Shown piece after piece: positions 10,286 to 28,567 of a stretch of 40,771 bases of DNA (the stretch's first letter is position 1; every line of letters begins with the position of its first letter). The notes below the pieces were generated by a model. The model did not search any database. It was not told the DNA's origin and saw only the letters and a program-made list of their open reading frames with translations. Source of the stretch: Peptococcaceae bacterium (GTDB lineage Bacteria > Bacillota > Desulfitobacteriia > Desulfitobacteriales > Syntrophobotulaceae); contig JAAYUV010000115.1 in NCBI GenBank assembly GCA_012517475.1, positions 1-40,771 of the forward strand, in the 5' to 3' direction. The translations under genes and the position numbers were made by a program.

Positions 10286-11062
10286 CTATACTAATTCTTC
10301 TTGGGACTTATTTTCAGGCAGGTAACCGAGGTGGGTTCTAAGCTTTTCTTTCAAAATAGCAGGATTTTCTCCGGATTGAATGGATATTATCCCGTCCAGG
10401 ATCATCTCCATAGTCTGAACTTCCATTTGATTTTTTATTTTTAGTTTGGTTGCGATCGGAAGATAGACCAGGTTTGCTAAACAAACACCATAAAGGGTTG
10501 CAATAAAGGCAGCTGCGATAGAAGACGAAAGGGAATCCGGATCGGTTAGGTTACCGAGTACATGAACCAAACCCATAACAGTTCCGATAATTCCGAGGGT
10601 AGGGCTGTATCCGCCGGCTGCTTCAAAAAAACTGATGCCGATTTTATGCCTGTTTTCCAGTACGGCAATGTTAGATTCCAGAATATTCTTCGTGACTTCA
10701 GGGTCTGTTCCGTCAATAACCAACTGCATGCCTTGTTTGGTAAACTTATCTTCGACTGTTTCCAATTCCTGTTCTAAACTCAATAATCCTTCCTGGCGGG
10801 CTTTTTCCGCAAAACGTACCAAGGTAAAGTAAGCTTTTTCTACGCCGAAGGACTGATTCATAAATGCTATCCTAATCCATTGCGGCAATTTTTTTAATTC
10901 ATCCAAGGGAATGCCAACAACGGTTGCCCCAAGGGTTCCTACAATTACAATTAAAACTGGTGATAAGGCTACCAAAGAGCTTAGATGACCGCCCTCCAAA
11001 ATAAATCCCACAATAATGCCCAAAAAGCCCAATACGATACCCAAGATCGTGGTAATATCCAT
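10286..11062 (-). CDS. motA: Flagellar stator protein MotA
   Basis: This encodes 258 aa from an ATG with GGAGGAG just upstream. Four membrane helices are visible (about 5-23, 30-50, 150-172 and 180-203). The cytoplasmic loop has the conserved charged patch that contacts FliG: VRFAEKARQEGLLSLEQEL (82-100). The Gly/Pro motif SPTLGIIGTVMGLVHVL before helix 3 is classical. With MotB it forms the torque-generating stator. The unit runs away from the flagellar operons and is transcribed leftward; its 5' flank contains a REP-like palindrome 29 bases before the start codon. Confidence 0.95.
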   Translation of the reverse strand: MDITTILGIVLGFLGIIVGFILEGGHLSSLVALSPVLIVIVGTLGATVVGIPLDELKKLPQWIRIAFMNQSFGVEKAYFTLVRFAEKARQEGLLSLEQELETVEDKFTKQGMQLVIDGTDPEVTKNILESNIAVLENRHKIGISFFEAAGGYSPTLGIIGTVMGLVHVLGNLTDPDSLSSSIAAAFIATLYGVCLANLVYLPIATKLKIKNQMEVQTMEMILDGIISIQSGENPAILKEKLRTHLGYLPENKSQEELV

Positions 11063-11090
11063 GTAAAGTATCTCCTCCTGCTTGCAATGT

Positions 11091-11145
11091 AAGGGGACAC
11101 ACCCGCTGAGTCATAGGTTTTCTCTCGAGGAGGGAATGTCCCCTT
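11091..11145. repeat. REP-like palindromic element, copy A
   Basis: The ends AAGGGGACA (11091-11099) and TGTCCCCTT (11137-11145) pair perfectly over 9 bp. The reverse complement of this 55-base element matches copy B at 26886-26940: both have GGGGACATTCC on one side and ACTCAGC[A/G]GGTGTGTCCCC on the other. Palindromes with GGGGACA ends resemble the repeats mobilised by REP-associated (RAYT) transposases; no transposase gene is in the window. Confidence 0.7.
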
Positions 11146-26564: not shown

Positions 26565-26879
26565 ATGAGTAACGGAATCGTACCGATCACTCCTATCGCT
26601 CCACTTGCTCCGCTGGATAGTAAAGAACTGACAGGGACAAAGGGTACTGACAAAGGAAATACGGATTTTTCCGGCTTTCTCAAAGATGCGCTCACAAAAT
26701 TGGATAATACCCAGGCGGAGGCTGAACAGGCAACCATTGCAATGGCTACCGGAGAAACGGATAACTTTCATACCCCGGTGATTGCCTTGGAAAAAGCCAG
26801 TTTGGCTCTCGGGTTGGCAGTCACAGTCAGAAACAAGGTTTTAGATGCCTATCATGAAATCATGCGCATGCAAATCTGA
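26565..26879 (+). CDS. fliE: MS-ring/rod adaptor FliE
   Basis: This encodes 104 aa. The conserved region is near the middle: DFSGFLKDALTKLDNTQAEAEQATIAMATG, then VIALEKASLALGLAVTVRNKVLDAYHEIMRMQI at the end. FliE joins the MS ring to the rod and is exported first. It follows flgC by five bases with GGGG upstream. After its stop a REP-like palindrome separates it from fliF. Confidence 0.95.
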   Translation: MSNGIVPITPIAPLAPLDSKELTGTKGTDKGNTDFSGFLKDALTKLDNTQAEAEQATIAMATGETDNFHTPVIALEKASLALGLAVTVRNKVLDAYHEIMRMQI

Positions 26880-26885
26880 TTTATT

Positions 26886-26940
26886 AGGGGACATTCCTTC
26901 ATATAAAGGAATACCTACAACTCAGCAGGTGTGTCCCCGT
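26886..26940. repeat. REP-like palindromic element, copy B
   Basis: AGGGGACATTCC (26886-) to TGTCCCC (26932-26938), with an inner hairpin ATTCCTT / AAGGAAT (26893-26912). It is the inverted counterpart of copy A (11091-11145), sharing both end blocks and the ACTCAGC[A/G]GGTGTGTCCCC half. It lies between fliE and fliF and will fold in the operon mRNA. Confidence 0.7.
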
Positions 26941-26962
26941 ACCGAATAAGGGGGAGAAAGCG

Positions 26963-28567
26963 TTGAATTTTTCCTTAACGGAGATTTTGAATTCCGTCAA
27001 GAATTATTGGAAGAAATTGACTCGCCCGCAAAAGGTTGTTTTAGTGCTGGCTCCTCTTGTTGTTGCCACTGCCCTTTTAAGTCTTATTTATTGGGCAAGC
27101 CGTCCTCAATACGAGACGCTGTTTACCAAATTAAGTTCGAACGAAGCCGGGTCGATTACAGCGAAATTAAAGGAATTAAAAATTGATTACCAGTTGTCGG
27201 ACAGCGGTGCAACTATCCTTGTTCCTCAAAAACAAGTCTCTGAAGTCCGTCTTCAACTGGCCAACGCCGGTTTACCCAAAGACAGCACCTTTAGTTTTGA
27301 AAATTTAGACCAGATGAGAATCGGAGAGACCGACCAGGATCGCAGGTTAAGGTATATTCTTGGCCTTCAAAATGAATTGGAAACGACAATCAAAACACTT
27401 AACGGAGTGGAGTATGCGAGGGTTCATATTGTTTTGCCTGAGCATTCTTTATTTGTAGAAAATCAAAAAGATACCACCGCCGCTGTAACCATCAAAACGG
27501 CGTACGGAACAAAGATAGGAGAAGATCAGGTCAGAGCTATTGCCAACTTGCTGGCTTATTCTGTCGAGGGATTGGTAACAGACAAAGTGACGATTGTGGA
27601 TACCAATGGAAATGTTTTATCCGATATGATAGGAAAAAGTAATCTCTCCAGCAAATTAACGGCCAATCAAATTCAAGTTCAGCAAACGATTGAAGAGAAC
27701 ATTCAAAAATCAGCTCAAAGTATGCTGGATAAGGTCTTTGGGGCTGGAAAAACCATTGTGAGAGCAAATGCAACCTTAGATTTTGACCAGAAAAAAATTA
27801 CCAGTCAAAAAAGTGAAAACGGAGCTATTGAAAGCAGGCAGCAAACCTCTGAAAAAAGCTCAACCCAATCGGGAAACGGCGGTGCAGCCGGAACTCAGAG
27901 TAATGTGCCCGGATATCCGGTAACAGGACAGGGGAACAGCACTTCTACCTCGGAAAAAACAAGTACGACCGAAAATTTCAAACCGAGCGTTACCCAGGAG
28001 GAGACGGTAGTAAGTCCAGGCCAGATCAAACGTTTAACGGTTTCAGTCCTGGCCGATTCAGACAGTGTAACCCAGGAACAGGTTGGGAATCTTCAAAACA
28101 TTGTTTCGTCTGCAATAGGAATTAATGTGAACAGGGGAGATGAAATACAAGTGGCCTTATTGCCGTTCAATAAAACAACGATGTTGGAAGAACAAGCAGC
28201 TATGCAGGCAGCGGCTAAAAAAGCGAATATTATGCTCTATACTCAAATAGCCGGGGCTGTTATAGCCGGCATAGTATTCCTCGTATTTCTCCTCAGGTTA
28301 AGGTCAAGAAAAAGAGACCATTACGATTTTGATTCCATGGCTGTTCCGGACGGTCAAAAACTCGTTACTTTGGAAGAAGCAGAACAGATCTTTGCAGCAC
28401 AGATGGAAGCTGAACGTCAAGCCGAATTAAAACTTGCTAAGAAAAAAGTTAGATCCTCTGAAGAAATTGAAAAAGAGAAAGTTCGAAAAGAAGTCGAAAA
28501 GTACACGAAAGAAAATCCGGATGATGTAGCGAGACTGGTTAAAACCTGGTTAACAGAGGAGCAATAA
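26963..28567 (+). CDS. fliF: MS-ring protein FliF
   Basis: This encodes 534 aa from a TTG at 26963 behind AGGGGGAGA. One membrane helix lies at about 26-46 (VLVLAPLVVATALLSLIYW) and the second at about 428-448 (IAGAVIAGIVFLVFLL). Between them are the ring-building motifs ILVPQKQVSEVRLQLANAGLPKD and YARVHIVLPE, and a Ser/Thr/Gly-rich linker near 300-335. The C-terminal tail (KYTKENPDDVARLVKTWL) binds FliG. It forms the base of the motor. fliG starts two bases after its stop region. Confidence 0.96.
   Translation: MNFSLTEILNSVKNYWKKLTRPQKVVLVLAPLVVATALLSLIYWASRPQYETLFTKLSSNEAGSITAKLKELKIDYQLSDSGATILVPQKQVSEVRLQLANAGLPKDSTFSFENLDQMRIGETDQDRRLRYILGLQNELETTIKTLNGVEYARVHIVLPEHSLFVENQKDTTAAVTIKTAYGTKIGEDQVRAIANLLAYSVEGLVTDKVTIVDTNGNVLSDMIGKSNLSSKLTANQIQVQQTIEENIQKSAQSMLDKVFGAGKTIVRANATLDFDQKKITSQKSENGAIESRQQTSEKSSTQSGNGGAAGTQSNVPGYPVTGQGNSTSTSEKTSTTENFKPSVTQEETVVSPGQIKRLTVSVLADSDSVTQEQVGNLQNIVSSAIGINVNRGDEIQVALLPFNKTTMLEEQAAMQAAAKKANIMLYTQIAGAVIAGIVFLVFLLRLRSRKRDHYDFDSMAVPDGQKLVTLEEAEQIFAAQMEAERQAELKLAKKKVRSSEEIEKEKVRKEVEKYTKENPDDVARLVKTWLTEEQ

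Follow-up and report, generated by a model that had tools for sequence, protein, structure and literature searches.

A family of short, apparently mobile hairpin elements with two copies in the motility region of a Peptococcaceae bacterium

Two related imperfect palindromes, here called copies A and B, lie among the motility genes of a Peptococcaceae bacterium, in the 40,771-nt stretch of contig JAAYUV010000115.1 (assembly GCA_012517475.1) that was analysed as a whole and is called the window below. It is likely that they represent a non-autonomous family of short mobile hairpins, which are moved as a single strand, probably by a Y1 HUH transposase of the RAYT/TIRYT group. The evidence comes from the spread of the family, from stem pairs that covary, from a conserved 3′ tail and from an empty site in a congener.

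Results

Two copies of an imperfect palindrome in the motility region

A first-pass annotation of the window had described two copies related as reverse complements, at 11091-11145 and 26886-26940, with the common halves GGGGACATTCC and ACTCAGC[A/G]GGTGTGTCCCC. Both copies were found there and both halves are correct in each, the palindromes proper spanning 11093-11143 and 26887-26938, 15.8 kb apart and mutually inverted. The genes that it had named as neighbours were confirmed with Pfam: motA follows about 30 nt downstream of the end of copy A, and copy B occupies the gap that separates fliE from fliF. The features are as follows.

10286 to 11062, minus strand: motA (Pfam PF01618 and PF20560), downstream of copy A
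11085 to 11092, minus strand: 3′ tail of copy A, TTACATTG, which resembles the family tail consensus TTTCCTT
11093 to 11143, minus strand: copy A, a 51-nt palindrome GGGGACATTCC-N29-GGTGTGTCCCC in the 5′ leader of motA, oriented as motA
26565 to 26879, plus strand: fliE (Pfam PF02049), upstream of copy B
26887 to 26938, plus strand: copy B, a 52-nt palindrome GGGGACATTCC-N30-GGTGTGTCCCC in the fliE-fliF gap, oriented as both genes
26939 to 26947, plus strand: 3′ tail of copy B, GTACCGAAT, its exact ends ambiguous by a base or two
26963 to 28567, plus strand: fliF (Pfam PF01514 and PF08345), downstream of copy B

The middles of the two copies were said to differ, and alignment agrees: A and B are identical at 42 of 51 aligned positions with one gap, and the longest unbroken identity is 11 nt. 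The spaced two-half pattern gave 2 matches in the window and 0 in 100 shuffles. When a single 11-mer half was used with one mismatch allowed, 2 matches were reached in 20/100 and 6/100 shuffles. A single half alone is within chance expectation; the spaced two-half pattern is beyond chance. Read backwards, the pattern has 0 matches across the whole of the window's own genome. As single-stranded DNA, copies A and B fold better than their shuffles on either strand (z −2.7 to −4.0).

Copies in the window's own genome and in other genomes

The exact pattern occurs only twice in the window's own genome (3.68 Mb, 115 contigs), as copies A and B. A covariance model, R1, was built from 55 members with A and B among these; it scores each of the two at 63.5 bits and adds three decayed copies (C2:27629-27695, C28:26621-26687 and C113:53435-53495), which brings the total by model to 5 copies, two intact and three decayed. 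The annotation had proposed that copies be counted genome-wide and that a RAYT gene be looked for. The count yielded these three further, decayed copies and the search a RAYT-like Y1 gene, described below, so that the idea of a REP-like element survives the refuting condition set for it. The C28 copy has a partial 3′ half in tandem, ahead of the full 3′ half. The C113 copy (L245) sits in the loop of a GC-rich, terminator-like hairpin with a T-rich tail, between acyl-carrier-protein-like (acpP-like) and rnc-like genes, as we read the ORFs. Since a similar element stands within the same hairpin in the congener G001 (contig C13, L246), this insertion is older than the split of the two. The chance of some pair among five random copies being as close as A and B is about 9% by our own arithmetic, and the window was chosen for holding both.

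Exact two-arm matches, a few of which overlap owing to nested elements, number 71 in FK_Sedi_B_Bin.80 (labelled Actinobacteria by its depositors), 44 in BRH_c20a, 22 in MnB_11 and 6 in SKW22; the reversed pattern gave 0 in these four genomes. Within the class to which the window's genome belongs, exact matches were found in 23 of 82 genomes and R1 matches (E up to 0.001) in 36 of 82, the latter being a lower bound as the strict filters of that search lose weak matches. An exact 18-mer scan of genome contigs returned 20 stretches, 14 in four genomes holding the family and 6 chance matches; these six (L019, L020, L024, L025, L029 and L030) lack a 5′ half at the matching position and were not kept as members, and L014, with a degenerate 5′ half, was retained in alignment A1 only.

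Four IMG/VR contigs carry one element each (33-48 bits with the model). Two of them, the phage-like L209 (element at 1355-1396) and L212 (920-961), are identical across the 1.4 kb compared, so that three phages at most are represented. In both, phage-tail-like genes surround an open frame that contains the element and reads straight through it. A scan of a plasmid collection gave one weak partial match, and a scan of a phage collection gave none.

Of 89 copies, 3 lie inside a called ORF. Twelve regions fetched from other genomes have copies standing beside ordinary-looking, unrelated genes, and the ORFs near them include no common transposase. Elements also form clusters, in tandem and element-within-element arrays; in L062 and at G003:C64:116269-116345 a bare hairpin of about 30 nt is nested in the loop of another copy. 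These small palindromes thus form an apparently mobile family, which is spread over many genomes of bacteria and is also present in a few phage-like contigs.

Structure of the element and its flanks

The two arms oppose each other over eleven positions, with one T·G pair and one T-T mismatch. Members had been collected with exact or nearly exact arms, so that part of the arm constancy results from how the set was made; for evidence of a stem that does not depend on this choice, the positions just inside the arms were used. It can be seen that, first, among 83 unique elements pair 12 is standard in 81 (T-A 64, C-G 17) and pair 13 in 67 (C-G 36, G-C 21, T-A 10), against 73 and 53, respectively, in the best of 1000 shuffles; pairs 14-16 are not above shuffles. 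Secondly, in a thinned alignment of 55 members both sides have changed in 37 cells versus 16.7 expected, a count that is inflated by shared descent, as such counts are, and that 0 of 500 shuffles equalled. When the structures were slid by 1-3 columns, at most 16 such cells were obtained. Two of five covariation measures are not above shuffles, namely pairs with both-side change (422 of 500 shuffles as high) and further pair types (456 of 500). Covariation is thus seen in two pairs of the stem, those next to the inner ends of the fixed arms.

Predicted folds of the 83 unique elements comprise 64 with one hairpin, 18 with two hairpins and 1 otherwise. The unit measures 47-59 bp, with a loop of 25-37 nt, in 82 of the 83 and 30 bp in one. 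A three-way-junction fold (ATTCC...GGAAT, ACC...GGT) was not adopted, though copy B as DNA has its lowest energy in this form; GGAAT was counted in 14 of 83 loops versus 1.5 expected, an excess that shared descent can explain.

Outside the 3′ arm runs a tail with the approximate consensus TTTCCTT, in which position 4 is C in 84 of 87 elements. The 5′ flank, by comparison, has a consensus specific to the genome, with exceptions in each: CCGATC in FK_Sedi (29 elements), ATTCGTT in BRH_c20a (12), TCAAAA in MnB_11 (17) and nearly so in SKW22 (6). Copy A has TCAAAA as its 5′ flank and copy B lacks it. No GTAG, GT(A/G)G or CGTC tag was seen at the element ends when the 5′ and 3′ flanks were read.

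It is conceivable, if rather unlikely, that the family is a hairpin replicator of its own kind, which crosses bacterial phyla and phages and lands inside hairpins. A non-Y1 enzyme would then read the ends, the mismatch and the 3′ tail, and the 5′ flank would be re-tuned from genome to genome, as CCGATC, ATTCGTT or TCAAAA. The landing sites on such a reading would include other hairpins, among them the terminator-like hairpin and the element's own loops.

An empty site between fliE and fliF

Here 87 nt separate fliE from fliF, versus 26 nt in the congener G001, and the flanks of the gap align closely between the two. The net gain of 61 nt equals the 52-nt imperfect palindrome plus a tail of roughly 9 nt, which would make up the element of about 61 bp at site B. 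Because the congener gap is 61 nt shorter and without the element, copy B looks like a lineage-specific insertion; since its site is empty in G001, it would be young relative to the split from the congener. The earlier suggestion that differing centres reflect age is not supported by this, nor by the centres of the family, which vary throughout. Model R1 was run on 25 loci of relatives found with fliE and 25 found with motA as query, and the element was at neither site in any of them; L182, among the loci found with fliE, does not have a genuine fliE-fliF arrangement. The only other match, weak and short and elsewhere in the fliE locus of G001 (14.8 bits, E 0.017), was taken as chance. Near motA some 30 nt besides the element are also different in G001, and that site therefore does not define the element ends. 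The case for movement rests on the one clean empty site of copy B.

MITEs are non-autonomous and have inverted ends, as this element does. Copies A and B might be the inverted-repeat ends of an ordinary DDE transposon without its gene, and the 11-bp terminal inverted repeats, the short size and the lineage-specific insertion would agree with such an origin. However, no target duplication is visible at site B when the flanks of this single clean site are compared by eye, and the bases that follow the 3′ arm are conserved from genome to genome, as a target would not be. Furthermore, the hairpin pairs covary, and among the nested forms there are bare hairpins only about 30 nt long. It seems improbable, then, that the family consists of MITEs.

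Y1 transposase genes and their flanking repeats

Searches with Y1_Tnp (PF01797) covered 18 genomes, the window's own included, and found 90 places. Sixty-five were examined: all 29 in the own genome and four further genomes (26 in the four), and 36 of 61 in thirteen element-bearing or related genomes. The three matches in the own genome are one 268-aa RAYT-like gene and two partial matches at contig ends. This gene is flanked by GGGGACGGTTCT repeats, which also begin GGGGAC but differ from the element in layout, and its 3.3-kb locus holds no copy of the element by model. None of the 65 places is flanked by the element, as judged by the arm pattern and then by model R1 on all 65, at least 14 of them having one flank under about 330 nt owing to a contig end. 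A full copy near a Y1 gene was seen only at L043/L096 and L155, 1.2-1.4 kb off, and was taken as coincidence; the L141 Y1 locus has one weak model match (13.8 bits). Several element-bearing genomes have no Y1 match at all, namely SKW22 (6 copies), G003 (9 by model), G008 (1, in an assembly that is 98% complete) and G001 (2 weak). The annotation had stated that such elements are moved by RAYT transposases, and the loci examined do not show this: the own RAYT-like gene has GGGGACGGTTCT at its flanks instead, and the element flanks 0 of the 65 Y1 places.

Other repeats were found beside Y1 genes. At L004 (895-1965; G000:C44) a RAYT-like Y1 gene stands between a run of GGGGACGGTTCT repeats and a single inverted copy of the same repeat; this gene with its repeats is a candidate REPtron/TIRtron of the window's genome. 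Repeats around Y1 genes were read in part of the 65 loci, in batches of 14, 4, 11 and 6, with overlap. Where flanks were read, several long Y1 genes have other GGGGAC or GGGGTC repeats and others have none. The Y1 genes of L033, L036, L050, L135, L144, L045 and L096 have flanking repeats of their own of the GGGGAC or GGGGTC type, often in a gene-specific short stem, as if repeat and enzyme had diverged together.

Comparison with known repeats

The closest published relatives that we have seen appear to be the terminal repeats of TIRtrons. In passages of Di Nocera et al. (2013, PMC3733652), some TIRs of TIRtrons, whose transposases are called TIRYT, share the motif GGGGWSAS, some are partly or wholly self-complementary, and families occur in dimers or clusters; RAYT-like genes of species without GTAG repeats are described there as flanked by terminal repeats. 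The 3′ arm of the element read from its outer end, GGGGACAC, fits GGGGWSAS. In contrast, the 5′ arm GGGGACAT departs from this motif at the final base, and no Y1 gene among the 65 places in 18 genomes is bounded by GGGGACATTCC/GGGGACACACC. A Y1 enzyme acting in trans is our first guess because TIRtron repeats are the closest published kind that we have seen.

Like the REPs and REPINs that go with RAYT (PMC2817692; see also PMC3116915), the element is a short palindrome with a non-complementary middle, mostly extragenic, clustered and without a gene of its own; unlike them, it has no GT(A/G)G head and no flanked RAYT, and it has loops of 25-37 nt and a 3′ tail of about TTTCCTT. Tagged REPs share with it a palindrome that forms a stem-loop, but a REP tagged with GTAG or CGTC measures 20-40 bp according to a passage of PMC3733652, against 47-59 bp in 82 of 83 elements here, and the unpaired GTAG/CGTC tag is missing. 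More than 100 REP copies per genome are usual, as a passage of PMC2817692 has it; the element has 6-71 exact copies in four other genomes and 5 by model in the own genome. CGTC-REPs, in the part of PMC3733652 that treats them, are tagged palindromes for which no dedicated transposase is known, in which they resemble the element, but the tag of the element is close to TTTCCTT rather than CGTC. The tagged REPs described so far come mainly from gamma- and alphaproteobacteria, as stated in a passage of the same paper.

Among the matches listed in a literature search by arm sequence all were unrelated by title, and those listed for REP terms held nothing on the family, nor did the passages searched of PMC3733652, PMC8049555, PMC2817692 and PMC2267715. 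The family is new as far as these literature searches show.

The name REP-like palindrome, given to the copies by the annotation, suits them in kind, as the family is repeated, its members are short, form hairpins and are mostly extragenic, and they cluster in tandem or nested in one another; it does not extend to the GTAG/CGTC tag, the size or the flanked gene. By these three features the element is not a standard RAYT-REP. That it should nevertheless be one, moved by the 268-aa RAYT-like protein of its own genome, is quite improbable. Such a gene does exist, and its repeat likewise begins GGGGAC; against this stand the different repeat and layout at that gene, the locus free of the element by model, the lack of a tag, and the 6 copies of SKW22 in a genome with no Y1 match.

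Position relative to host genes

Copy A lies just upstream of a ribosome-site-like AGGAGG in the motA leader, and copy B just upstream of GGGGGAG ahead of fliF. Both copies would be transcribed as hairpins. Being untranslated, transcript-oriented and placed directly before ribosome-site-like sequences, they could be a cis-acting RNA or an operator kept for motility control. However, the element is absent from both sites in the congener and the other relatives examined, and its neighbours in the twelve fetched regions of other genomes are unrelated. The Rfam search of the window gave no match at gathering scores, and the motA and fliF leader RNAs fold no better than shuffles (z only −0.9 and −1.4). 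A scan for loops of 3-8 nt found no terminator-like site around motA. In codirectional settings 47 of 65 copies are opposite to transcription (two-sided p 0.0004, from crude ORF calls and with related copies counted apart), unlike both copies of the window. A motility-specific role is unlikely, because the leaders fold ordinarily, neighbours elsewhere are ordinary and orientation is mostly opposite to transcription; a conserved control element at these two sites is thus a very improbable account of the family.

The annotation had also suggested that the inverted copies could invert the late-flagellar/chemotaxis block. In 13 genomes, the window's included, a single contig holds motA and fliE no more than 42 kb from each other; they are always divergent there, with fliE pointing away from motA. 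In G007 the two genes are about 2.1 Mb apart. As the relatives are without the copies, the shared order says only that the window appears to hold the ancestral motA/fliE arrangement. With 11 nt of unbroken identity, homologous recombination between the copies would not be efficient. The inverted layout 15.8 kb apart might speak for inversion sites by which the block is flipped, but this reading finds no support and is very unlikely, given that the one assembled arrangement of the window has the same order as the 12 relatives that hold both genes within 42 kb, and given this short identity.

Discussion

We therefore return to a short hairpin moved by an enzyme encoded elsewhere. Movement most likely takes place in the form of single-stranded DNA, which would fold into a hairpin whose 11-position arms keep one T-T mismatch and one T·G pair and are lengthened by a further two or three pairs. 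The hairpin, together with the adjacent tail, would be recognised in trans by a transposase, and insertion would take place without duplicating the target. Most likely this enzyme would be a Y1 HUH transposase of the RAYT/TIRYT group. In the window's own genome, one intact copy would have inserted ahead of motA and another in the fliE-fliF gap, while older copies would have decayed.

The family offers a workable case outside the gamma- and alphaproteobacteria, with defined ends and tail, covarying pairs and one datable insertion, in genomes that range from rich (71 exact matches) to poor (2). Once the enzyme is identified, it should become clear whether RAYT-like proteins serve all repeats of this sort or some of them have a different mover. 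Since copies A and B sit in the leaders of motility genes, they are a natural test of the effect of a mobile hairpin on expression.
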